Shown here one piece after another: positions 2,525-23,852 of a DNA stretch of 26,365 nucleotides (positions are counted from its first letter, which is position 1; every line of letters begins with the position of its first letter). The translations under genes and the position numbers were made by a program. The notes beneath the pieces were generated by a model that saw only the letters and a program-made list of their open reading frames with translations, was not told the DNA's origin and ran no database searches. The DNA comes from a virus, in the IMG/VR virus record IMGVR_UViG_3300020417_001190, positions 1 to 26,365 of that record; one strand, 5' to 3'.

Positions 2525-2869
2525 CTAGGCTCCATAGTGTTCTGCCAGACCGATTTTTATCATTTCTTGATTAAGGTTGACGCCATCAGCGAAGAGCTCG
2601 CCCAGCAGCCGACCATACATGCCTTCTTTGTCTTTATAAGTTTTGATAATTATTTCGTCAGCGTCGTCCAGTCGATCTCGGAGCCAGTCTCTAGCCTCCA
2701 GGCCGCGCTGCTTCTCTTCTTCGTCCACTCCCCTCAATTCGGGCGTGTTAATTTTGTAAAGCCGAACCTTTTCTTTGTATCTCATTGTTCGAAGCCCAAG
2801 ATCAATGTCGAGCGTACAGGTGTCGCCGTCGTAAACGCCGTGAACTTTTTTTACTTTATATTCGTACAT
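2525..2869 (-). CDS. Thermonuclease-like (SNase) protein
   Basis: A 114-residue staphylococcal nuclease homologue, expected to hydrolyse DNA or RNA with calcium. The conserved elements are VYDGDT (12-17), RLYKINTPE (36-44) and YGRLLG (85-90). By alignment with the S. aureus enzyme, Arg36, Glu44 and Arg87 correspond to catalytic Arg35, Glu43 and Arg87, and Asp16 to the metal ligand Asp21. The second metal ligand Asp40 is Asn41 here. There is no signal peptide, so the protein should act in the host cytoplasm, for example on host DNA or DNA ends. It is shorter than the mature S. aureus enzyme, mainly in the C-terminal helix. The start overlaps the DUF5675 stop (TAATG). Confidence 0.9.
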   Translation of the reverse strand: MYEYKVKKVHGVYDGDTCTLDIDLGLRTMRYKEKVRLYKINTPELRGVDEEEKQRGLEARDWLRDRLDDADEIIIKTYKDKEGMYGRLLGELFADGVNLNQEMIKIGLAEHYGA

Positions 2870-3315
2870 TAGAAGCCCATATACTCAATCGTTGCACCTT
2901 CCTCGATGATGTCATCCACCATCTGAGGGTACATTCGGCGATACGCATTCGTACTGTCCCCAATGAAGCCGGCTTTTGTCACATTCTGATAACTGCTATC
3001 GCCTACGAGCAAACAGCCCATCGTGTCTTCGTCGTCATTACCGATGTGAATCAAAATATCAGTGAAATTTGGAACGTCCATTACCTCAATCATGCCGCGA
3101 TGGAAATCAAACTTGTTTTGATACCTGGCATGAAATCCACCGTGTTCACGAATTGCTAGGTCGTATTTCCCATTAGGTATTCGTGTTTCACCAGCAACCT
3201 TGACGGCTCGCTGCTCGTCCTCGAGGGTGAAGCAAACAAACTCTTTGTCACGATAGAGAGCTCCCAACGTGTCATTCTCGCCAGAGCTAAACCTTAATAC
3301 TATGTATTCGATCAT
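2869..3315 (-). CDS. DUF5675 family protein, candidate peptidoglycan enzyme
   Basis: A 148-residue protein with the DUF5675 pattern: TLGAL (16-20), CFTLED (28-33), IPNGKYDL (46-53) and then ILIHIGN with DTMGC (87-93, 98-101). His90 and Cys101 in HxGN-x4-DTxGC resemble the catalytic HxG...SxGC arrangement of L,D-transpeptidase (YkuD) folds; this likeness is my inference. No lysozyme, amidase or transglycosylase motif occurs elsewhere in the window, and the gene stands between the virion proteins and the lysis-type cluster, so it is the best candidate for cell-wall work. It has no signal peptide or membrane helix. ATGA overlap with the upstream internal protein sets the start. Confidence 0.8.
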   Translation of the reverse strand: MIEYIVLRFSSGENDTLGALYRDKEFVCFTLEDEQRAVKVAGETRIPNGKYDLAIREHGGFHARYQNKFDFHRGMIEVMDVPNFTDILIHIGNDDEDTMGCLLVGDSSYQNVTKAGFIGDSTNAYRRMYPQMVDDIIEEGATIEYMGF

Positions 3316-6476: not shown

Positions 6477-9400
6477 TTAGGCTGTTTGAGGCCCATAAAG
6501 TTTGTTGTATTCCTCTTTGAACTGCTCGACGGTTAAGGGGATTCCAAAATTGTTGAGCATGTTTTGAATGACACTGTCAGGCTGCTGCATAACAGCGGGC
6601 AGATTAACCATGTTGGCCAACATCGTAATCGCACCACTCACATTGCCCTGGCTTACCATGTTGCCGAGTCGAAGACTCGGATCAGGATTTGTGTGGCCGG
6701 CCATCATCGTGTTTGTTGCTCGGAATGAATTGTGATCGACTCCACCGACAATGCCGTCAGACGCCCAACCAGTGTCAGCCGCCTGTTGATTTTCCAGATT
6801 TCCAACATCACTAACATTTGTCGGCGATTGGCCTTGCCAGCCGCGAAAATCAGCCGCGATATCACGACCTGTGTAAACCCCAGAATTTCCGATCCCGCCC
6901 GATCCCGAGATGATGGAGGCTATGACATCACTTGGCACTCCTCCAAATGTGTTACCGCCAGGATTTACGTTACCGCCAGGATTTACGTTACCGCCAGGAT
7001 TTACATTGCCGCCAGGATTTACATTGCCGCCAGGATTAGCGCCAGCGTCAGACACACTAAAGATTCCAGGGAGCGCTTTGAGTCTGGCGAGCTCGTTTTC
7101 CAGAGGGCGCGGCAAACCACCGGACAGCGCCTTGAGGTCTTCAAGGTGACGTATCTGAGCGTCAATATCGCCGCGAGCAACCGCATCCTGGTATCTGGCC
7201 TGAATGGTGATCGCGTCGTTTTCTTGATCAGATATTGTGCCGTCATTAGATGAAACAGTGACGCCAGGTTGCGAATCGGGCTGCAAATCTTCTTCTGATA
7301 GCAAGCCCTCGGAAACCAGATACTCATCGAGCTTAAGTCGAGCGCCCATCATGGCATTCTCAGGCGTAAAATTTTCGTTTATGAGTCTGTTGTACTCTTC
7401 CTCATAAAGTTGCACACCAGCATCGATTTGTGCATCGGACGCACCCAAGCCCGACATGGCGGTTCTAATCGTTGCGACATCGACACTCTCATCTGTTTGT
7501 GCATCAGTGCCCGCTTCCTCCTGAGCCGTCTCGGCTGGCATTTCCAAGCCCAGCAAGTCATAAATCATCTGGCGAGTTGGAATTCGGTCAATTCTGTCCT
7601 CCTTGCGAATCTTGTCTTTCGCCTCGTTCCATTGGCCTTCTGAAAGATCATCCGGCTTTGACATTAATCCCTCGTCAGTCAAAACCCGATCATTGAAGAT
7701 CCATCCGTTTTCGCGTTTTGTAGCTCGCTCCTCGAGCTGGTCTTGACTCAAGGTGTCGTAGAACTCATCGGACGTTTCATCCAACTGTTCATCCGTTCCC
7801 GCCGTACCGCCGTCTGTTGGTTGCTCAGCGGTCGGCTGTTGCGTCGTCGCACCACCCGGATTTGGATTAGTGGTGCCAGGTGAGGTCGAGGTTGACGAAC
7901 CTCCCCACCAGCCTTTTTCTTTACCGAAATCCCAAATCGCTTTAGCGCCAGCCACCCCACCGAGGATCGAGCCAATCGTTTCAAGAGCGCTAGAATCCCC
8001 CGAATTGACAGCGCCATTAATCAGGCCATCAACCGTTGAGTTGCCAGTTGAGATACCACCGCTACCGTTGTCGCCTGGCTGTTGGCCACCGCCACCACTT
8101 AACAATTGATCGATAAGGTTAGCAGCAGCATTCAGTGCCGCGAGCTCCTTATTGAACTTGTCAACCGTCACCGTTTGGTCAGTTCCAAACCTGTTGAACA
8201 TCGGTTGAGCAATGTTGACGGCGCTTTGCAGTTGCTCCATCGGCAGTTGCTGATCACGCAAGAACTTTTCACGTTCCGCATCGATTTCCGCTTGATTCTG
8301 CGTCTGGAACGCCTGGTTCGCTTCGTAGATGTCTCGGAAGTTTCCACGACGGGCCGCGTCACCCTGCTGCATTAAATTAAATCCAATATCGCCAATTGCT
8401 CGCAGATTGTTTGCTGCCGTGAGGCCTTGCCCCCGATTCTGGAATGCGAGCCTGGCATTCTCGGAAGCTACATCACTAGCGATACCAAGACCTCGATTGT
8501 AGGCGTCATACCTTAGATTACTGCCGACGTCAGCGATCCGATCAGCCGCGCCCCTGGCAGCAATAGCCTCTGCTGCGCCTCTTCGCGATGAAGCGGCCTG
8601 CCCTACACCAGCCGCCGACGCTGCAATGCCAGGCATTTGGTCTTCGTACAGGTTCCTCGTGACATCTCTCGACGTCGCGTCAATCATTCCATCAATATAG
8701 GGGTTGTTGGAAATACGATTAACCATATCCATATCCGGTCCCATGTTCCGAATTGGCGACCAATCAAGCGCAGAGGTGTAGTAGCCCTGAGCGTCTCGCA
8801 TTGCCGGGCTTAACTCTTCCCCAGCACCATATATCGCATCAGCATATTGTTGACCCCCGCCACCTTGACTCGCATACGCGGCGAGATTGTTGAGCGCTGC
8901 GATTTGATCTGGCGTCATGTCAGCGATCCAGTCGCCGCCGTATGTTTGCCAGGGATACTGTAACTGTGCATTCGTGCCGCCGGAGATATTTCCAAGCAAC
9001 GTTGCGAGCCAATCAGGTGGCGCACTTTGTTTGGTCGTCTCCTGAACCGAATCAAAAGTATCGTCATCAACCGTCGGCGCTGGGTCTACATCTGTGCTGT
9101 TGTTCGTCGCTGCCGTCCACCAGGCATTTTCTTCAACTGGCGGGGTGCTGTAGCCGAATTGCTGATTGAGATAGTTATGCGCTGCACGAGCTCTCGTCGA
9201 CGGGTCTGGATTGTCGTTATAAATCTGAACTAACGCGCCTCTCTGCGTGTCGGAAAGCGCAGACCAATTGACTGGAACACGACCTTTGTTGCCCATGCCG
9301 TCATCGATTAAAACGTTGCGAACCTCATCGCCTTCCCCTGCTGGGTTCATGTTGAACGGGTTGTCCATCGTCGCTTGGTTCGGCGGCTGACGAGATTGAG

Positions 9401-10151
9401 TCGTGTCCGCAGTGTCTCCCATGTTTGTTTCGTCAGGCTGAATTCTTCCTTCAATGTTTGTTTCGTCAGTTTGTTGATTAACGTAATCTTGAGCGCGGGC
9501 CTCGTTCTCTAAACGAATCCTTTCTCGCTCGGCAATTATTTCGTTTTGCCCAGCAGCTTGCTGTCGACGTCGTTCCTCATCTTGAGCTCGCATTCGATCT
9601 TGCTGGGCCTGCTGTTCAGCAGCTTGTTGCTGGGCGGCAGCCTCTTGTGCAAGCCGATTCCGTTCCAACTCCGCGTAGTATTCATCTTGCGCGGACATGC
9701 CCGTCCCTGACGCAGCGCTCGCGGCAACGTTCGACTGCATGGTCGCTTGGATTGGTGTCGTTTGTGCTGCTGTTAATGGCTGGGTCGCTGCCATTGGCTG
9801 GGTCGCTGCGGTCTGCTGCATTGCTGCCGCTGGCTGGGTTGCCATCGGCTGGGTTGTCGTCACGGGAGCAGTTGAACCAGTCACTACACCGGTCTGTGGT
9901 TGTCCAGTGTTCGCCACACCAGGCATCGGCAATGGCGGCAATCCTTGGGCTGCACGAGCTGCGTTTTGCGCGGCAATAGCTTCCGGCGTGGCGAGAAGTT
10001 GGTTGAAATCCGCAGGGTTGTAGCCTTGCCCCGCATTCATATTGCCGTAGCCAAAAGGACTGTACTGCATATTCGGATTCATGGTTTGCGGATAGCCAAG
10101 TTGAGCCGGATTCGAAAACGGAAACTGAACTGGCATGTTCGTGTATGACAT
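6477..10151 (-). CDS. Giant structural (internal virion / ejection-type) protein with low-complexity N-terminus
   Basis: A 1224-residue protein, the longest in the window. Residues 1-60 are rich in N, P and Y; about 60-260 are rich in Q, A and T with a charged coiled segment; about 390-670 contain a helical core (around DGMIDATSRDVTRNLYEDQ and AASSRRGAAEAIAARGAA) of a kind often seen in podovirus structural proteins encoded beside ejection proteins. A Gly-rich linker (about 690-790), an acidic region, and five tandem GGNVNP hexapeptides (about 1038-1066) precede the C-terminal domain. The start has AGGAG seven bases upstream, nine bases after the previous stop. Assignment to the virion is by composition and context; it may be a core protein or long tail component. 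Confidence 0.75.
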   Translation of the reverse strand: MSYTNMPVQFPFSNPAQLGYPQTMNPNMQYSPFGYGNMNAGQGYNPADFNQLLATPEAIAAQNAARAAQGLPPLPMPGVANTGQPQTGVVTGSTAPVTTTQPMATQPAAAMQQTAATQPMAATQPLTAAQTTPIQATMQSNVAASAASGTGMSAQDEYYAELERNRLAQEAAAQQQAAEQQAQQDRMRAQDEERRRQQAAGQNEIIAERERIRLENEARAQDYVNQQTDETNIEGRIQPDETNMGDTADTTQSRQPPNQATMDNPFNMNPAGEGDEVRNVLIDDGMGNKGRVPVNWSALSDTQRGALVQIYNDNPDPSTRARAAHNYLNQQFGYSTPPVEENAWWTAATNNSTDVDPAPTVDDDTFDSVQETTKQSAPPDWLATLLGNISGGTNAQLQYPWQTYGGDWIADMTPDQIAALNNLAAYASQGGGGQQYADAIYGAGEELSPAMRDAQGYYTSALDWSPIRNMGPDMDMVNRISNNPYIDGMIDATSRDVTRNLYEDQMPGIAASAAGVGQAASSRRGAAEAIAARGAADRIADVGSNLRYDAYNRGLGIASDVASENARLAFQNRGQGLTAANNLRAIGDIGFNLMQQGDAARRGNFRDIYEANQAFQTQNQAEIDAEREKFLRDQQLPMEQLQSAVNIAQPMFNRFGTDQTVTVDKFNKELAALNAAANLIDQLLSGGGGQQPGDNGSGGISTGNSTVDGLINGAVNSGDSSALETIGSILGGVAGAKAIWDFGKEKGWWGGSSTSTSPGTTNPNPGGATTQQPTAEQPTDGGTAGTDEQLDETSDEFYDTLSQDQLEERATKRENGWIFNDRVLTDEGLMSKPDDLSEGQWNEAKDKIRKEDRIDRIPTRQMIYDLLGLEMPAETAQEEAGTDAQTDESVDVATIRTAMSGLGASDAQIDAGVQLYEEEYNRLINENFTPENAMMGARLKLDEYLVSEGLLSEEDLQPDSQPGVTVSSNDGTISDQENDAITIQARYQDAVARGDIDAQIRHLEDLKALSGGLPRPLENELARLKALPGIFSVSDAGANPGGNVNPGGNVNPGGNVNPGGNVNPGGNTFGGVPSDVIASIISGSGGIGNSGVYTGRDIAADFRGWQGQSPTNVSDVGNLENQQAADTGWASDGIVGGVDHNSFRATNTMMAGHTNPDPSLRLGNMVSQGNVSGAITMLANMVNLPAVMQQPDSVIQNMLNNFGIPLTVEQFKEEYNKLYGPQTA
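6955..7038 (-). repeat. In-frame 18-base tandem repeat (GGNVNP x 5)
   Basis: CCGCCAGGATTTAC recurs at 6955, 6973, 6991, 7009 and 7027, exactly 18 bases apart, inside the giant structural gene. On the coding strand each unit gives the hexapeptide GGNVNP. The copies differ only at synonymous positions: one end has GTT-AC and the other ATT-GC in the plus-strand text. The repeat probably encodes a flexible linker and can change length by slippage. Confidence 0.9.
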
Positions 10152-10160
10152 AAGTATCTC

Positions 10161-10409
10161 CTAGCCCAATTTATTCCAGGCGGCGTTGTAATAGGTGTAC
10201 ACGCCCTGGCCTGCACCTGGGTTCCAATTTGTGCCGTCCGCAAGGACAGTTAAACCATCCCACCGTTTGGTCGGCTCCGCGTTGACGGTAAAAAACGTAA
10301 ATTCAGTTCGATCAGCATGAAACTGCTGCGCGATCTGCCGAAAATATTCATTTAAAAAAGGTTCAATATCCTGGGGCGTGGGCGAAAACTGTGGTCGCTC
10401 GTCGGTCAT
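10161..10409 (-). CDS. Small phage protein of unknown function
   Basis: An 82-residue soluble protein with no signal, membrane helix or cysteine. It has a helical N-terminal half (PQDIEPFLNEYFRQIAQQF) and a C-terminal half rich in W, Y, N and G ending GVYTYYNAAWNKLG, a pattern like small virion or fibre-associated proteins. Its ATG overlaps the stop of the nozzle-like gene (ATGA) and it ends nine bases before the giant structural gene. I do not recognise a family; context suggests a minor structural or assembly role. Confidence 0.7.
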   Translation of the reverse strand: MTDERPQFSPTPQDIEPFLNEYFRQIAQQFHADRTEFTFFTVNAEPTKRWDGLTVLADGTNWNPGAGQGVYTYYNAAWNKLG

Positions 10410-12034
10410 CTGCGTCCCCTTGGAGTCGATATCTCGATGTCCAGACCATTGAGGCTGAACAGCGCGGGATTTGAAGTGTCATTAGGCTCGATTCGATACG
10501 CAAGATAGCGACCCGCAGCACGAACATCGACCGCATAGTCGGTATCATCATCCAGGTCGTAGGTGACAGATGCTTTCCAATCAATTGAACCCTCTGCTGT
10601 TGCATGAGTGCCGACGGTAAACTTGACTACGCCCTGGCCTGCCATCTGAGGGATGATTCGATTCAGATAGATGATCTTATTCGCCCCCTCTCCAGCTTCG
10701 TCAAGATCAATTGCGCGGTGCTCAATCATCGCATCGCGACGAAACGTTGTTACGGGGTTTGTCGCTCCCGCGTAGTCCATATTCCACACGACGCCGCTAT
10801 AGCTGCTCACGCCGAGCAAGCTAACCGTTTCATCAGCACCGGACATTTGCGCGTAGGTGGTGTCACCGAAGTCGCCATACGTCTCGCTCGTTAGACCGCT
10901 ATAGTTGACAGAACTATCGGCAGGCCGAGGTCCGACCGCGATGTGTTTCAAAATTCCGTTCCCGTTTAGCTCTGCGACGACTTGCGTGAACGCATAGTTG
11001 TGAATTGAGTTGGCAATAAAGAAGAGGTTGCCGTCGCCGCTCGAATAACTCCGACAAAGAAACACGACTTCGTTGCGTTTGGGGTAATAAGCAGCGACCG
11101 GTTTGAAATTTAGATTGAGAGTGTCGTACAGGTAGCGCGTGTTTTTTTGATCACTGATGGATTGCTTAGAGAAGCCGTCATGCACATAGATGTCGCGATA
11201 GCCGAAAACAACAGCACCATCGCTGGTGATCGCATGGCTTAGCGGGCCTACGCACCCATCATCTTCAAAAACTTTTTTAAATTCGAAGACGTATGCACCG
11301 CCAACAAAGTCTGCTTTCCACGTCCGACGCTCAAAATAGATCATGAGAGAGTCTCGAACCGGTTGCAACGCAGTCAAATTACCGCCTGGCTCAGCCAGCA
11401 ACGTTTCACCGGCCAGCAACGTTGGATCGGTGTGATCCCAATAAGTTTGCGTGTCACCGTCGGCAAATGGGTGGCTCCACTTCACCATTCGTGATTCTTC
11501 ACCGCTACCACCTGACTTGCTGATGCCAACTGCAACCAGAATATTTTTATAAACACTGAGGACGTTGCACTTGTACGTCGTTGGCCAGCCAGGAAGGTCG
11601 ACCATTTGGGATAAGGCAGCAGATGTCCAGTGCGGGTTATCGACAGCACTGTTGTTCGTAATGATAAAATAGCTGCCGAGCTGTACGGCCTGCCACTCGG
11701 TCGCAGTCGTAGACATCGATACCGGTGGACTCACATCAGTTTTACTGCCTGTTAAATCGACAAACTCGACCTTGATGGTGTCTGGCGATCCTGTGACTTT
11801 CGAGACGACAATCCAGCCATCACCGGAACTTCTCGTGAACGGGTGACAAAACAAGAATGTTTCGTTCGCCACATCGTCGAGAAAAACAGATGCATTTGAA
11901 AAACTCGACAACGACTGGTCTTGAATCCTGATTGATCGAGCGCTTCGAACGCCTTGCGTTGGAATGTCGCTGTTCGCAATATCTTTTATTTCGCCGGCAA
12001 GCCCGATCTGACGTAGTGCTATCGTTTTGTTCAT
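10406..12034 (-). CDS. Tail nozzle / DNA stabilisation-like protein
   Basis: A 542-residue protein with dense beta-strand character throughout, consistent with a beta-propeller or nozzle fold. The N-terminus (GEIKDIANSDIPTQGVRSAR, residues about 11-30) resembles the opening of podovirus nozzle and gp10-type stabilisation proteins, in which a short specificity segment is followed by a propeller. It sits after the adaptor and receptor-binding genes and before the internal proteins, the normal place for the tail hub. I use the ATG at 12034 because it overlaps the upstream stop (ATGA); a GTG five codons earlier is also open. The family call is moderate; the structural role is more secure. Confidence 0.65.
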   Translation of the reverse strand: MNKTIALRQIGLAGEIKDIANSDIPTQGVRSARSIRIQDQSLSSFSNASVFLDDVANETFLFCHPFTRSSGDGWIVVSKVTGSPDTIKVEFVDLTGSKTDVSPPVSMSTTATEWQAVQLGSYFIITNNSAVDNPHWTSAALSQMVDLPGWPTTYKCNVLSVYKNILVAVGISKSGGSGEESRMVKWSHPFADGDTQTYWDHTDPTLLAGETLLAEPGGNLTALQPVRDSLMIYFERRTWKADFVGGAYVFEFKKVFEDDGCVGPLSHAITSDGAVVFGYRDIYVHDGFSKQSISDQKNTRYLYDTLNLNFKPVAAYYPKRNEVVFLCRSYSSGDGNLFFIANSIHNYAFTQVVAELNGNGILKHIAVGPRPADSSVNYSGLTSETYGDFGDTTYAQMSGADETVSLLGVSSYSGVVWNMDYAGATNPVTTFRRDAMIEHRAIDLDEAGEGANKIIYLNRIIPQMAGQGVVKFTVGTHATAEGSIDWKASVTYDLDDDTDYAVDVRAAGRYLAYRIEPNDTSNPALFSLNGLDIEISTPRGRR

Positions 12035-12615
12035 TTGAAGCAAATCCACATTAGATTGGCAGCAGTCAGATAATCAGTTTTTGAGATCGTGAAGCCATCC
12101 GCATCGAAACTGCTCAGCGTCCCGCTTGCTTGTGTCGTAATGCCATTCCAGGCGTAGTAGAGAGCAGATGTGTACTGGTTAGAACTGTCTCTGCCAGAAC
12201 TGCCCGCGGCCAACGTGCCAAGGCATTGGCCTGCCGGATAATCAGCGCTTGCCGCACCGATGCTCACATTCATATAGTTCGTCGTCACGACGTTGGCCAC
12301 GACCACGATGACTGACGGCTGAAATCCAACGCCCGTCACAGCATGAGTTCCCGCGCTTGCAGTTGTTTGCAGTAAACCGATTTCTGGAGATGTCAGAGTC
12401 GGCAATGTCACGCCCTCGAGCGCCGTGATTCTCGCGTCAAAACCATTCATCTGCGCTTGAGTCAAATTCATCGCAGCATCGAATCCGTTCGGAAACGTTT
12501 GCGTGATGGCCTTCTTGATTGAGCGCAAGTGATCGTCAGCCTGGCTCGTAGGATCGCCAACGACGGGGTTTGACGAATCAAGATCGTAGATAAAATTTGC
12601 AGGATCAAGACTCAT
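12031..12615 (-). CDS. Receptor-binding-type tail protein, paralogue 3
   Basis: A 194-residue protein, third of three tandem paralogues. It shares an N-terminal block (ADDHLRSIKKAITQTF, about 26-41), a short helical connector (RITALEG, about 62-68), and a beta-rich C-terminal half with VTGVGFQP and the SFDADGFTIS motif, ending in MWICFK. The DHLR-x-IK block is typical of the N-terminal attachment part of phage fibres and collar proteins, and the beta half is then the likely host-contacting part. The start overlaps the stop of paralogue 2 (ATGA) and the stop overlaps the nozzle-like gene, so the row is translated as a coupled set. The middle of the C-terminal domain differs strongly from its sisters. 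Confidence 0.7.
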   Translation of the reverse strand: MSLDPANFIYDLDSSNPVVGDPTSQADDHLRSIKKAITQTFPNGFDAAMNLTQAQMNGFDARITALEGVTLPTLTSPEIGLLQTTASAGTHAVTGVGFQPSVIVVVANVVTTNYMNVSIGAASADYPAGQCLGTLAAGSSGRDSSNQYTSALYYAWNGITTQASGTLSSFDADGFTISKTDYLTAANLMWICFK

Positions 12616-13208
12616 TGAATTGCCATCCAAGTGATATCGATGTCCCAAAGCCCGAGGGACTCGTTTAGTGTAAAACCGTCACTGTCAAAACTGACTAGCG
12701 TGACTCGTGCAGCAGAAGTTTCGTTTGCGCCATACATATCGAGAAGGTAAGACGACGATTGATAAGTTCGATCAGCCGTCGGATGCCAAGCATCTGTCGT
12801 GCCGGATAACGTGTAGGTGTTCGTGCCGTCGGCGAATCCAATCGAATAGTTCGCTGAAACAATTCCAGCCACGGTGTCGTCGCCAGTCGACATGGCAATT
12901 AATTTTGTCGGCTGATAGCCAACGCCTGTCACACTGTAATTGCCTGAACTCGTATTGATCGAAAGACGTCCGGTTTTGACTTTTATTTGAGGGAAGTTCA
13001 GCATCGATGCTTCCAAAGTCGCGATGCGAGACTCCATTAAATTAATTTTTGTCGGGCCGACTGTGACCGCCCCCGTCACACCAGAAAAGGTCTGCCGCAA
13101 TGCTTTCTTGATGTGACGAACATGTGAAGCAGCGTCCGCAAAGCGGTCGTTGTATGAAGGATCGTTTGCGTTCAGCCCCTGAACGTATTCGGCGTTATTT
13201 AAACCCAT
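12612..13208 (-). CDS. Receptor-binding-type tail protein, paralogue 2
   Basis: A 198-residue paralogue with the same plan: attachment block SHVRHIKKALRQTF (about 28-41), connector RIATLEA, then VTGVGYQP and VSFDSDGFTL, ending TWMAIQ. The aspartate of the DDHLR motif is replaced by SHVR, so this copy is the most diverged at the N-terminus. The start at 13208 overlaps the stop of paralogue 1 as TAATG; a longer GTG reading would lie within the preceding gene and adds nothing conserved. Predicted short fibre or receptor-binding subunit; no enzymatic motif. Confidence 0.7.
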   Translation of the reverse strand: MGLNNAEYVQGLNANDPSYNDRFADAASHVRHIKKALRQTFSGVTGAVTVGPTKINLMESRIATLEASMLNFPQIKVKTGRLSINTSSGNYSVTGVGYQPTKLIAMSTGDDTVAGIVSANYSIGFADGTNTYTLSGTTDAWHPTADRTYQSSSYLLDMYGANETSAARVTLVSFDSDGFTLNESLGLWDIDITWMAIQ

Positions 13209-13819
13209 TATGGAAATGCCACCCACATCATGACCGGCTCCTCGCCGCCTGACGCTTGTAAATTTATCGTGATGTCGAATCCATCGCTGTTAACTGCTCC
13301 GATTGACAGCGAGGACAGCGACTGACCGCTAGAGGCGTACATGAAGGTCGCGAAACTCACAAAGTTGGCACTGTTCGCGAACGTGCCTAGATCAGTCGAA
13401 AGGCTGGCAACATAACCGCTGGTGTGATCCTCGTTCCAAGCGCTAAACGATATACCGCCACGGCTGTTTGTGGTTTTTGCTGTTGACCAAGCCCATATCG
13501 TTTTTGGCTGAAAACCTAGTCCGGTCACACTAATCGTGTCATTCGATGCATAGCCGGTTGTGTCTGTAACGCCAAGTTTTGGCGTGATTTGCGAGAACGT
13601 CAGCCCTTCCAGCGTTGTCAGTCTGGAGTCCCACGAGTCGATCTGGGTGCTCGTCGCGTTTATCGCCTCATCAAACTCATCGCCAGTTGATCCGGCAAAT
13701 GTTGCGAGAACAAATGTCTTTATCAGTCGCAGATGATCATCTAGCTCATTTGCTGGATCGGTATCAGCGGGTAGCGCGACGTTAAAGTCTGAGATGTACG
13801 TTCCCGTCTCAACGGTCAT
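13208..13819 (-). CDS. Receptor-binding-type tail protein, paralogue 1
   Basis: A 203-residue paralogue, first in reading order. It has DPANELDDHLRLIKTFVLATF (about 21-41) at the N-terminus, the connector RLTTLEG, then VTGLGFQP and NSDGFDI near the end, finishing MMWVAFP. The domain order (attachment block, short trimer-like connector, beta-rich tip) is shared with the two genes that follow. It overlaps the adaptor gene by 11 bases. The three copies probably arose by duplication; they may assemble as separate fibres or as one mixed structure. Confidence 0.72.
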   Translation of the reverse strand: MTVETGTYISDFNVALPADTDPANELDDHLRLIKTFVLATFAGSTGDEFDEAINATSTQIDSWDSRLTTLEGLTFSQITPKLGVTDTTGYASNDTISVTGLGFQPKTIWAWSTAKTTNSRGGISFSAWNEDHTSGYVASLSTDLGTFANSANFVSFATFMYASSGQSLSSLSIGAVNSDGFDITINLQASGGEEPVMMWVAFP

Positions 13820-14432
13820 GGTAAACAGCCTGAACTTGAATTGGCGAACCGGAGTAAAGTTCGTCGCTTGTGTTTTCGACGATCATCGTCAACGTATCCA
13901 TGTAATATTTTTCCCACGTTGGGATACGCTCATCCTCGTTAAGATATGGCGCTGCCATCATGAGAGAACCGAAGACGTAGAGATCGGGATGCGTCGTCAT
14001 GACAGAGTTGGTCGCCGTGTCGCTCGTCACGTCGCTAGAAACATCCGCGTAGTAATATAAATCGATGTCGTAGGTCGCATCTGGCGCTGGATGAAACACA
14101 AACGCATTATTGATTCGGCAAAACACTTTTGGCTCGCCCCCTGCGCTTTCGTTCTTCAAGCGCAACCGAAGCTCCGATTCTGATACCGCGTCAAGCGGCA
14201 GATCGTTGACAAGCATGTACTTTAACGACCGGTAATCGCTTGGCACGGTGTACGAGTTTGTGACCAGTGATCCACTGCTCACGGCCTCATTTTCTCGACA
14301 CTTCAGAACTCTGAATATCCTCGCCTGTGCCATATCAATAAAATTGGGCACTTGTGACGCCAGGTCTGTCCGATCATAGAGATAAGACGTTATCTCAGTT
14401 TTAAGCGTACCGATGTCAGATACTATCGCCAT
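13809..14432 (-). CDS. Head-tail adaptor, SU10-type
   Basis: A 207-residue protein. The helical N-terminus (LKTEITSYLYDRTDLASQVPNF, split by the usual short loop) and the following SLVTNSYTVPSDYRSLKYM segment match the phage adaptor family (SU10 adaptor type), which forms the ring that joins the portal to the tail. A long C-terminal helical region around HPDLYVFGSLMMAAPYLNEDERI is also typical. It lies downstream of the portal, scaffold and capsid genes and directly upstream of tail proteins, as expected. AAGG is found about 11 bases before the ATG. It overlaps the preceding gene by 17 bases. Confidence 0.82.
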   Translation of the reverse strand: MAIVSDIGTLKTEITSYLYDRTDLASQVPNFIDMAQARIFRVLKCRENEAVSSGSLVTNSYTVPSDYRSLKYMLVNDLPLDAVSESELRLRLKNESAGGEPKVFCRINNAFVFHPAPDATYDIDLYYYADVSSDVTSDTATNSVMTTHPDLYVFGSLMMAAPYLNEDERIPTWEKYYMDTLTMIVENTSDELYSGSPIQVQAVYHDR

Positions 14433-19843: not shown

Positions 19844-20347
19844 TTAACTGCTCGGTGGTGTCGGCCAATCGTCATCTTCGTCACCAACCGGCCCCGGCGT
19901 CCGCAAGTTAGGCCAGCGCTCATGTGCCGTGATGTCTCTGAGTTCTTGCCGGTAGGTTGCCCAATCAGAAGCCAGGGTCGCGCTTGTCTCTGTTGCCTTG
20001 ATCACCATCCAATCTGTTTCGGCGAGCAAATCATCACGTTTTTTCCGATTTATCGTGGCTGTTTCTGCATCCTGGGCAGCGACGAGCGCCGCCTGCTCAT
20101 CTGACGTCAGGTCAACAACACGACATGTGTAAACAACGTTAGACTCAATAAACGGATCGACCTTCTCTATTTTTTGCGTGGCGGGATCATAAGGAAGACC
20201 GAAAGTGACAGGCATCGCGCTGTTTTCCGTATACCACGCCTCATTCGGCCCCTCTTTCGGGAAACTGGTGTTTGGAAACAGCTCTTTCAGAAACCCAATT
20301 TCATCGATGGTGTTATCTGCGTTAATTTTGGCGACTTGCATATTCAT
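19844..20347 (-). CDS. Tail fibre assembly chaperone-like protein (Phage_tail_APC type)
   Basis: A 167-residue protein. The C-terminal third carries the pattern of the phage tail assembly chaperone family: RDDLLAETDW (104-113), W..YRQELRDI (129-140) and a closing WP..P (151-155). The N-terminal part begins MNMQVAKINADNTI and is variable, as expected of the fibre-specific region. It lies right behind the lectin-domain fibre gene, so it likely helps that fibre fold or trimerise. The start two bases after the fibre stop has no strong ribosome site of its own, consistent with coupling; a second Met two codons in is possible. Confidence 0.82.
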   Translation of the reverse strand: MNMQVAKINADNTIDEIGFLKELFPNTSFPKEGPNEAWYTENSAMPVTFGLPYDPATQKIEKVDPFIESNVVYTCRVVDLTSDEQAALVAAQDAETATINRKKRDDLLAETDWMVIKATETSATLASDWATYRQELRDITAHERWPNLRTPGPVGDEDDDWPTPPSS

Positions 20348-20349
20348 TC

Positions 20350-22431
20350 TCAGCTATTCGGGAAAGCATCTGCCGGCGGCGTGAAATCAGAGGTGTAGAC
20401 GGCCTCCGCAGTAATTCTTAACTCATCAAGATAACCGGAATAATCGGTATTTGACGTTCCTCGCCCAACTTTCAAACCGTTCGTATGGTGATCGGTAAAA
20501 TCCGTGCTCAAGGTTAAAGCCCCAGACGTGCTTTCCGTTCCATCAAGATAGGCTCTCACCTCTGAACCACTTCTAACGATTGCGACGTGATACCAGGTGC
20601 TGGTCGACATGGTTGGGACTGTCCAAGACTTATTAGTCATGCCCGTGGTGCCATTCGTGAAATGAGCCAGACCTAAAGCAGTAGTTCCTTCAGTCCTGAT
20701 GATCCAGTTATTGATCGCACCACTTGAGTAGTAGTTGGCGCTCGAAAGAATTGCGCCCCACGTTGGAAACGTTGAACGGAACATCCAAAATTCAATCGTG
20801 AAATCTTGCAATATCGGAACATGTTTTATGTTGAGATCAGTCGAAGAAAACCAAGCAGACGTAGCACCGAATTTCTTTTGCGCTGTTAGAACTTGTGCGC
20901 TGCCGTTCACCAAGGTGTCGTTTTGACCGGTCGAGTCAATAAGATTGCATTCGAAATTCATGATGAGTTTGGTGTCGGCATTGCCACCTGTGTCCGCTGA
21001 ATTGCCAACCAAACCAGTTGGGATCGTGATCGATGTTGGCGCAGAGCCGTTCACCATGTGCTCGCAATAATTGGAGATTAACCGGAAGTTGGCGATCTTC
21101 CCGTTGTAGTGATACGCGGGATAATCGCTGTAGAACCGCCCCATGATGAATTGACCTGGAGAGCCGCCCGTGTTTGTTGCAGAATCCAACGTCCTAACGC
21201 CATTCAGCCATGCCGCCGTTCTCGTGTTAGGCGTTTGTTGACGACAGATCGCAACGTGGTTCCAGGCGTTTTGCTGTGGGGTGCCAATAGCGGTATCGTA
21301 ATAGCTGAAACCGGTGCTACGCCCCAGGTAGAGGACGCCACTGAGCATGTGAATGTTATAGGCGATCTGCGTTTGATAGTAAGGAGTGCTCGTATTGCCG
21401 ATGAGCGCTGAATAACTGCCCCCATCTCGCGGATAGAACCAAAAATCTATGGTCCAATTGGGATTAACGGCTATGGCAGATGCATAGATCCAATCGCTGC
21501 CATCGAAATCGGCAGCGCCACCATGTGTGGAAGGGTCATAGTCCGCATTATCGGTGCCGTTGTAGTTGAAAGGGGCATCAGGCTTAACCAGCGGCCCGTG
21601 TACCAAGCCGGCAGGATAGCTGCCAGCAGGCAATGAACTCGCATAGTTGCTGTTATCAACCGCCATGTGGGACTGGTGGATCAACAGTTCTGTCCAAAGG
21701 TTGGCGGTTAATGGCGTCGTGGGAGGCGTAAACGCGCTCGTATAAGTCGCCGCGTAATGTACCTTAAAATTGCTAATGTAAGCGTTGACGCCGTTACTGT
21801 TATAGCTGAATCGATTACCAATCGTCCACTGAGTGCCACTGTAAGTGTCTGTATCTGACACCGATGTTTTTTCAACACCGTCTAAAAAGACTTTTAAGGT
21901 GCCACTGGATCGGCAAATGGCAATGTGATGCCAAGCGCCAAGGTTAATATCGTTGTTTGTGATACCGGAGCTACGATAATTGCCGGATGCTGTTCCTAAA
22001 CTCCAAGGGGTAGAATTATTACCAGACGATGTATGGAGATAAGTGTGGCTGGTGCCGCCAGAATAACGACAATCGAAGATAAATTTATCAAGTCCCAGCG
22101 TGACGAATGAGATCCAAAATTCAACCGTAAAGTCACTTGTTGAAAACGCGGATCGTCCCGTATAGAGAGTCGCCTCTGAAGCGCCATCGTAGAGCGCCGA
22201 CCAACAACCATGCGGACGACGAAACGGCCCACCTTCGCTCTGATACGGATCACCGCCACCAGTATAAAAAGTCGGCGAAACAGTGCCACCCGATGCCGCG
22301 AAACCCTGGTTAGTAGAGCCATTAGCACCATCAAAGTGATAGAGGGCTTTGACCTTGTTCCACGTTGCCTCTGGATCTGCGCCGGCACTACCAGCAGCAG
22401 CCATCTGCAATTTTCGGGCTAGGACACTCAT
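20350..22431 (-). CDS. Tail fibre with three lectin-like (LamG/ConA-type) domains
   Basis: A 693-residue protein with three repeats of a laminin-G / concanavalin-A-like fold, at about 25-245, 300-460 and 490-690. Each repeat shows F[ST][TV]xFW (DFTVEFWI, WTIDFWFY, DFTIEFWM), then W[HYN]HVAI[CV]R and a [FAY]LDG or WLNG turn, and closes with a strand followed by [AV]xYTSxFTPP in repeats 1 and 3. LamG/ConA folds bind sugars or proteins, so the protein is a good candidate for a receptor-binding fibre. The N-terminal 20 residues (ARKLQMAAAGSAG) may anchor it. It overlaps the upstream fibre stop (TGATG) and is followed by its putative chaperone. Confidence 0.85.
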   Translation of the reverse strand: MSVLARKLQMAAAGSAGADPEATWNKVKALYHFDGANGSTNQGFAASGGTVSPTFYTGGGDPYQSEGGPFRRPHGCWSALYDGASEATLYTGRSAFSTSDFTVEFWISFVTLGLDKFIFDCRYSGGTSHTYLHTSSGNNSTPWSLGTASGNYRSSGITNNDINLGAWHHIAICRSSGTLKVFLDGVEKTSVSDTDTYSGTQWTIGNRFSYNSNGVNAYISNFKVHYAATYTSAFTPPTTPLTANLWTELLIHQSHMAVDNSNYASSLPAGSYPAGLVHGPLVKPDAPFNYNGTDNADYDPSTHGGAADFDGSDWIYASAIAVNPNWTIDFWFYPRDGGSYSALIGNTSTPYYQTQIAYNIHMLSGVLYLGRSTGFSYYDTAIGTPQQNAWNHVAICRQQTPNTRTAAWLNGVRTLDSATNTGGSPGQFIMGRFYSDYPAYHYNGKIANFRLISNYCEHMVNGSAPTSITIPTGLVGNSADTGGNADTKLIMNFECNLIDSTGQNDTLVNGSAQVLTAQKKFGATSAWFSSTDLNIKHVPILQDFTIEFWMFRSTFPTWGAILSSANYYSSGAINNWIIRTEGTTALGLAHFTNGTTGMTNKSWTVPTMSTSTWYHVAIVRSGSEVRAYLDGTESTSGALTLSTDFTDHHTNGLKVGRGTSNTDYSGYLDELRITAEAVYTSDFTPPADAFPNS

Positions 22432-23852
22432 CAGGCGAGAGCCAAGGCCGCAGCGAAGCCGTACCAGTTTGAGCCCTGATCGTTCGTCACAAACGTCCAG
22501 GCGTCCACCTCATTTGCGCCACTGCTCGGGGTTGGCGCTGTGCCTGCTGCCCACCTGACGTTGGCAGGCCATGCAATCGAATGCCCGCCCGTGCCGTCTT
22601 GCTTCATGATGAGCGTAAATGAATGGGCAGTACCGGATGAGGCGATGTTATTCCATGTGAACGTCGTTATATTGTGAGCAAGGGTGACTTCAAAAAGGCC
22701 ACCGTCATTTAAATCAATCGCGTGTGTGGTGCTTGCCGTCGTGCTGGAGGTTGATTGTTCGTGAATCGCCCCGTTGAAGCTCGTGACATCGTTCGCGTCA
22801 GTGCCAATCAGGTTGCCCGTCTGGGTTGGCAGGGTTAATTCGACATTTCCGCTGTATGCAGCGTGTGCTGGAGACTGGATTCGAGCGTAGTGCGCGTTTG
22901 CATTCTCGCAATAAAGATCAATATGAGACACCGATCCACCGTTTTTAACGGCTATTGCGCCTTGCGAAAGGCTGACACCGTTAGTGGAGCCGCCGCCAAC
23001 ACCTAAACTGGTGGTCACATCAATGGCGGTTGCCAGTTTCGCGGACGTCACAGAAAGATCGGCGGGTGACAGAGCATCAATCGCCTGTTTGATACGCTCC
23101 GGGGTGAACCGTTTGACATCAGTGACGGTGCCCGCCTCTGCTTCTGCCTGAGAGGCAACGGCAACTTGATTGTTGTACGCGGTTTCGATCTCTGAATCGC
23201 TCTGATCGGCGGTTGAACCGTCTTCAACGTTAATCAGTGTCCTGACATTGGCTGCTGACAGCTCTTCAGCACCACCGGACCCAGCCGTGGTTCGACCGAG
23301 GATAATATCGTTTGTTGATACAGCAACCTGGGCCTCAGTCACCGATAAAGCGGCCTGGTGCTGGGTTACTGACGATTCTGAAATGCGACCATCGGCAAAC
23401 GTGCCACTCGTGGTCGCTGACGCCGGTAACGCATTGACGGCATAATCAATTTGGTCGCCGGCATCGTCGTAAGTGACAGAAATGTTGGTCGTCGTGCCAA
23501 TCATGCCGCCAACAACGTCCTGAATGTGCTCGTTTGACTGACTGGCTTCGTCTTTGATGTCGGTTAACAGTGCAGCAGCGATTCTGAGCTCTACCACCGC
23601 ACCAGATGAGAAAGCGCTGGCTGATGTGCCGTCTTGAGCGCGGACAACGGTTAAATCATTGCTTGAAATAGCGGTAACTTTGACGATTTCGCGTGTTGGC
23701 GAGCCGCCACCGGTATCGAGGGTCACATAGCAGTAATCACCGCCACCCACGGTCGGTAAACCGGTCGCAGAAGCCACGGTAATCGTGGTTGCAACGTCCG
23801 AAATAGCCCCGTTTAACGTGCTCGAGTAGTTATTTGTGTATTTAACTGCCAT
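22431..23852 (-). CDS. Tail fibre protein
   Basis: A 473-residue protein. Residues 1-95 form the common phage fibre attachment domain: TTITVASATGLP, an EIVKVTAI strand and VVRAQDGTSA followed by GAVVELR. The middle (about 95-290) is rich in Ser, Thr, Ala and Asp with short repeats, as in fibre shafts. The C-terminal part (about 345-473) has the VELTLPTQTGNLIGTD and HSIAWPANVRW motifs of fibre tips. No enzyme signature is seen. Start by TAATG overlap, stop by TGATG overlap with the lectin-domain fibre, so the two fibre genes are coupled and may build one appendage. Confidence 0.82.
   Translation of the reverse strand: MAVKYTNNYSSTLNGAISDVATTITVASATGLPTVGGGDYCYVTLDTGGGSPTREIVKVTAISSNDLTVVRAQDGTSASAFSSGAVVELRIAAALLTDIKDEASQSNEHIQDVVGGMIGTTTNISVTYDDAGDQIDYAVNALPASATTSGTFADGRISESSVTQHQAALSVTEAQVAVSTNDIILGRTTAGSGGAEELSAANVRTLINVEDGSTADQSDSEIETAYNNQVAVASQAEAEAGTVTDVKRFTPERIKQAIDALSPADLSVTSAKLATAIDVTTSLGVGGGSTNGVSLSQGAIAVKNGGSVSHIDLYCENANAHYARIQSPAHAAYSGNVELTLPTQTGNLIGTDANDVTSFNGAIHEQSTSSTTASTTHAIDLNDGGLFEVTLAHNITTFTWNNIASSGTAHSFTLIMKQDGTGGHSIAWPANVRWAAGTAPTPSSGANEVDAWTFVTNDQGSNWYGFAAALALA

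Follow-up and report, generated by a model that had tools for sequence, protein, structure and literature searches.

The short tail fibres of Escherichia phage SU10 are six homotrimers of gp16, one for the dock loop of each nozzle subunit (PMC9509320). Within this loop, nozzle residues Trp839, Trp847 and Trp857 form a quasi-threefold star, and each of these tryptophans touches Ile24 of one gp16 subunit; residues Tyr23, Ile24 and Tyr25 of the fibre clamp the dock loop (PMC9509320). The SU10 tail carries more than one kind of fibre, including a long fibre that is attached to the adaptor (PMC9509320). Bruynoghevirus (LUZ24-type phages such as TL and vB_PaS-HSN4; structures 9nxk and 9nwi) has a single fibre gene of this kind directly upstream of the nozzle gene. 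The fibres in 7z47, 9nxk and 8zkk are each deposited as three chains with one sequence.

To judge by the papers searched and by the solved relatives, tailed phages have homotrimeric tail fibres. A search of open-access literature for heterotrimeric ones yielded none from a tailed phage, only the virophage DSLV2 and heterotrimeric baseplate wedges. For DSLV2 (Dishui Lake virophage 2), a 1:1:1 heterotrimer of gp37-like proteins from three successive genes is reported on the basis of modelling, biochemistry and electron microscopy (PMC12724248). What is new in the locus described here is a strictly conserved short tail fibre, apparently of the gp16 type, that is encoded by three genes and faces a quasi-threefold dock; from it we infer a heterotrimer.

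Three fibre genes between adaptor and nozzle

The DNA analysed, referred to here as the window, is an entire virus record of 26,365 bases, possibly itself a fragment of a genome. Three minus-strand genes, A, B and C, lie between the genes for an adaptor and a nozzle (Table 1), a position shared with the short fibre gene of SU10-type phages. A preliminary description had noticed three coupled paralogues of nearly equal size (194-203 aa) in which each start overlaps the previous stop, and all three open reading frames are present as claimed. The overlaps amount to 11 nt between adaptor and A, 1 nt between A and B (TAATG), and 4 nt both between B and C and between C and the nozzle (ATGA in each case). 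The motifs said to be shared were found as well (H29, R31, K34, L70-E71, VTG.G.QP and DGF). Paralogy is well above chance: in a search within the record, A retrieves C at 4e-23 and B at 3e-13. Full-length identity between the A, B and C families is about 16-39%. The same module encodes a portal (PF23899), a capsid protein (PF17236), a scaffold and a DNA ejection protein, and together with the adaptor these surroundings mark what is, by family assignment, an SU10-type podovirus structural module.

Table 1. Positions of the fibre genes, their neighbours and the sites discussed in the text
Feature	Position	Strand	Basis
Adaptor protein (SU10 adaptor family), upstream of A	13809..14432	-	PF24175, 1e-25
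Gene A: short tail fibre subunit, 203 aa, ELDDHLRLIK type	13208..13819	-	ORF; orthologous family A
RhxxhE coiled-coil trimer motif of A (RLTTLE)	13607..13624	-	
Gene B: short tail fibre subunit, 198 aa, DAASHVRxIK type	12612..13208	-	ORF; orthologous family B
RhxxhE trimer motif of B (RIATLE)	13011..13028	-	
Gene C: short tail fibre subunit, 194 aa, QADDHLRxIKKAI type	12031..12615	-	ORF; orthologous family C
RhxxhE trimer motif of C (RITALE)	12415..12432	-	
Nozzle (tail tube) protein with fibre dock, 542 aa	10406..12034	-	PHROG 3287 and 14417; PDB matches
Putative short-fibre dock loop, VNYSGLTSETYGDFGDTTYAQM	10844..10909	-	aligned to SU10 gp17 Trp839/847/857 segment

The N-terminal 60-90 or so residues of A, B and C, searched as a profile of their relatives, match SU10 gp16 (7z47_I, 7e-7) and 9nxk_A (1.5e-18), a protein of 215 aa named "tail fibers protein"; gp13 of 8zkk is a weak match (0.015). 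Over the 58 aligned residues, 9nxk_A does not differ from its counterparts in Pseudomonas phages such as TL, and PHROG 6465 ("tail protein") matches all three proteins over the same attachment domain. The nozzle matches 9nwi_Y (9e-40), 8zkk_O and SU10 gp17 (7z47_G, 3e-15). A, B and C share the N-terminal domain of SU10 gp16 and are therefore, on homology, subunits of the short tail fibre in a podovirus whose tail is of the SU10/LUZ24 type. From this homology and the RhxxhE motif, we infer that they are present in the virion as a trimer.

The likeness to SU10 (PMC9509320; 7z47) extends to the N-terminal domain, the gene position directly upstream of the nozzle and the three aromatic dock sites. 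SU10 differs in having one gene, a homotrimer, tryptophans in the dock, and T4-like collar and tip domains, whereas the virus studied here has three genes and another, beta-rich tip. A gp16-type fibre is encoded by a single gene; since three genes are found in all six lineages discussed below, this fibre is treated as a variant. Bruynoghevirus provides the closest solved N-terminal domain and nozzle and has the same gene order (portal, scaffold, capsid, adaptor, fibre, nozzle), but it possesses one fibre gene, the aligned part of which lacks both RhxxhE and the VTG.G.QP tip. DSLV2 resembles the triplet, by its description, in having three adjacent, distinct tail-fibre-like genes; it differs in being a virophage, in having proteins like T4 gp37 and in lacking a nozzle dock (PMC12724248).

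Monomer models of A and C (mean pLDDT 66-68) contain two helices followed by a beta-rich domain, with confident strands at about residues 80-110 and 165-200 and a poorly predicted middle. Foldseek returned no match for either model in the PDB at E <= 0.001 and seven matches at this threshold in BFVD, all with TM-scores below 0.5; hence no fold is claimed beyond a beta-rich tip.

Descent of the triplet among relatives

Relatives were sought by alignment-based scans of 2.9 million viral contigs, with alignments of A, B, C and the nozzle as queries. Alignment queries were needed, as the single query P0003 gave no match among the viral contigs. A search of genome contigs for a relative of the nozzle found none. 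The scans uncovered five more lineages with this type of nozzle (L006, L008, L009, L014 and L015), at 63-73% nozzle identity. All six lineages encode exactly three fibre copies in the same order and one nozzle gene, and their fibre genes are coupled or nearly so, either overlapping or lying no more than 3 nt apart. Whichever of the four alignments served as query, the same contigs came up again, so the triplet group looks nearly fully sampled in this collection at the sensitivity used. Among distinct loci with complete upstream sequence, about 75 carry one copy, about five carry two (four identified by script, and L048 by reading of its open reading frames), six carry three and none carries more.

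In a tree of the N-terminal domains, A (support 100/99), B (100/99) and C (90/61) form separate groups, each of which holds all six lineages; the three positions must therefore have been established by the time these lineages diverged. By this tree, A, B and C are shown to be three orthologous families that stem from an old triplication, each gene position being inherited without sign of tip swapping. The triplet genomes constitute one lineage related by descent, and the residue and motif counts given below are therefore not independent; a plain Fisher p-value computed from them would exaggerate the contrast and is given no weight here.

The two-gene relatives (L037, L064, L088, L048, L102 and L030) likewise have tandem gp16-type N-terminal domains upstream of one nozzle. 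They differ from the triplet in their collar-type or unequal-length tips, in lacking RhxxhE, and in having Ile or Val at the Ile24 position in both copies. Two tandem gp16-type fibre genes with collar-type tips and one nozzle are seen at L064:7675-8973, L048:1052-2341, L088 and L102:13-1416, and the nozzle dock loop of L102 is a clear threefold YxxF repeat (YESF/YNDF/YSGF).

Dock contacts and assembly of the fibre

The three aromatic sites of the dock loop, Tyr378, Tyr386 and Tyr394, align to SU10 gp17 Trp839, Trp847 and Trp857, with spacings of 8 and 8 compared with 8 and 10 in SU10. The residue three positions after each aromatic is Trp/Leu, Phe and Leu/Met in the triplet phages, versus mostly A/T/S, V/I/T/A and Q in single-gene phages (Q at site 3 in 38 of 41). 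On the side of the fibre, a gap-free alignment places one residue opposite SU10 Ile24, and this residue is hydrophobic in 55 of 60 single-gene and 10 of 10 two-gene fibres. Across the six lineages it is always Ala in the A family (accompanied in every case by Leu26), always Val or Phe in the B family, and Ala or Thr in five of six members of the C family. It is plausible, from these alignments, that hydrophobic bulk has shifted from two of the fibre subunits to the dock. All A, B and C proteins keep the whole N-terminal domain with P17, H29, R31 and K34, and its net charge differs by family, from -8 to -11 in A, -4 to +1 in B and -5 to -6 in C. The RhxxhE motif, near residues 61-71, is kept in 18 of 18 triplet proteins (with R, L and E invariant), compared with 6 of 60 single-gene and none of 10 two-gene relatives.

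Taken jointly, the contact residues, dock, charge, motif and gene coupling agree better with a single copy each of A, B and C on every dock than with three homotrimers sharing one dock, although none of them alone proves co-assembly. We therefore favour, at a probability of roughly 0.6, a 1:1:1 A:B:C heterotrimer matched to the quasi-threefold dock. Homology to gp16, itself a trimer on a quasi-threefold dock loop (PMC9509320), argues for this reading, as do the constant number, order and coupling of the genes beside a single nozzle gene in all six lineages, the three orthologous groups of the tree, the enrichment of RhxxhE over single-gene relatives, and the family-specific Ile24-aligned residue and N-domain charge together with the altered +3 dock residues. 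DSLV2 offers a precedent for three consecutive fibre genes that give a 1:1:1 heterotrimer (PMC12724248). The preliminary description had offered either one mixed appendage made at a fixed ratio or a three-receptor host range, and the former is the better-supported branch, given the gp16-type trimer homology and three non-interchangeable orthologues in every lineage.

Several observations weigh against the heterotrimer. The triplet genomes being one lineage, their conserved features may have a single ancestral cause. In single-gene phages, too, the three dock sites differ from one another; asymmetry of the dock thus needs no heterotrimer, and asymmetry per se was dropped as evidence. A few phages with one or two fibre genes likewise have Phe at dock site 3. 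A hydrophobic plug is not universal, since 4 of 60 single-gene rows, and the 9nxk homotrimer, have Lys at position 23. RhxxhE is a trimeric coiled-coil motif that favours homo- and heterotrimers alike and is present in some dimers too (PMC3653964). Finally, two-gene relatives exist that look like separate fibres.

The main rival is that homotrimers A3, B3 and C3 compete for the six identical docks and so yield a mixture of receptor-binding tips. Homotrimers are the rule among solved relatives, the C-terminal halves differ strongly between A, B and C, as the low full-length identity reflects, and two-gene relatives with different tips are known. Against this, a single type of dock would need to accept all three homotrimers, although the residues that align with the SU10 dock contact differ consistently by family; three genes are always kept, in order, without swapping or loss, and the tips bear no sign of diversifying selection, which makes this rival unlikely. 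Less probable again is a tail with three kinds of fibre in three places, in which one of the proteins occupies the nozzle dock and the other two sit elsewhere, for example on the adaptor. SU10-type tails do have several fibre kinds, with the long fibre of SU10 on the adaptor (PMC9509320), and B is the only family that is consistently hydrophobic at the Ile24 position. On the other hand, A, B and C share the whole N-terminal domain with its four conserved residues, and the adaptor is not enlarged, at 207 aa against an annotated 208 aa in one-copy Bruynoghevirus. Tandem duplication of fibre genes is common in phages, and two-copy relatives were found here, so the triplet might consist of ordinary redundant duplicates with no special assembly; we regard this as very improbable, because families that are so far diverged are all retained under purifying selection in six of six lineages.

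In the favoured heterotrimer, the N-terminal helices and the RhxxhE coiled coil would join A, B and C, one copy of each, into a trimer in which every subunit meets its own site of the three-site dock loop, with one dock per nozzle subunit and six identical docks per tail. The beta-rich C-terminal domains would form a three-faced tip that contacts the cell surface, probably after a rearrangement of the nozzle as in SU10, and the overlapping stop and start codons may help to hold the A, B and C products near 1:1:1. A further proposal, to which we give even odds, is that the fibre is an obligate A:B:C assembly: an ancestral homotrimer would have been triplicated and each subunit specialised to one non-equivalent dock site, dock and fibre losing symmetry together. 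If the fibre is an A:B:C heterotrimer, its mixed subunits would be unusual among the attachment fibres of tailed phages and its tip would have three different faces, and the triplet lineage would represent a natural experiment in the passage from homomer to heteromer on a binding site that lacks true symmetry.

Fibre tips and neighbouring genes

The C-terminal halves had been described as strongly diverged in their middle. They are indeed less conserved on average, with mean pairwise distances of 0.55-0.57 compared with 0.34-0.37 for the N-terminal halves, but they are homologous too and not merely diverged, since profile-profile E-values among A, B and C reach 3e-8 to 2e-16 (1e-10 to 1e-21 for the N-halves). 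The expected unequal conservation along the length holds for these averages and is reversed in B, whose C-half is more conserved than its N-half between the record and its nearest relative, L006 (75% versus 61% identity). The proposed comparison of amino-acid with silent changes gave dN/dS values of 0.11-0.32 for C-halves and 0.06-0.11 for N-halves (0.06-0.32 overall) in the pairs L008-L014 and L009-L015, the comparison of the record with its nearest relative being saturated (pS about 0.8). The C-halves thus exceed the N-halves and are still under purifying selection.

To judge from these rates, the pattern is that of an ordinary surface-facing tip under purifying selection and not that of a hypervariable device. 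A fast-switching three-receptor device is unsupported, given purifying selection with dN/dS mostly at 0.1-0.3. The idea of a three-receptor host range is also weakened by the lack of tip swapping and by the parallel divergence of the A and C C-halves across lineages (r = 0.94). In line with the preliminary description, no match to the reverse transcriptase family PF00078 was found in the 26-kb record, possibly a fragment; with C-half dN/dS at 0.1-0.3 in the comparable pairs, a diversity-generating retroelement target was set aside.

Other tail genes are found in the window. The separate fibre with three lectin folds noted earlier is borne out by three Laminin_G_3 stretches at 20350-22431. The minus-strand region 20350-23852 encodes two proteins, a tail fibre protein of 473 aa and another of 693 aa that has these three lectin-like domains, which together probably constitute a long fibre module; a tail assembly chaperone (19844-20347) lies alongside them, upstream of the portal. 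An 82-aa gene without family match (10161-10409, minus strand) directly follows the nozzle, where SU10 has its tail needle gene gp18, and is far shorter. Beyond it, a 1224-aa ejection-type protein (6477-10151, minus strand) has a C-terminal part in which PGGNVN recurs (NPGGNVNPGGNVNPGGNVN). Next to a DUF5675 protein (2869-3315) lies a small staphylococcal-nuclease-like protein (PF00565; 2525-2869, minus strand).
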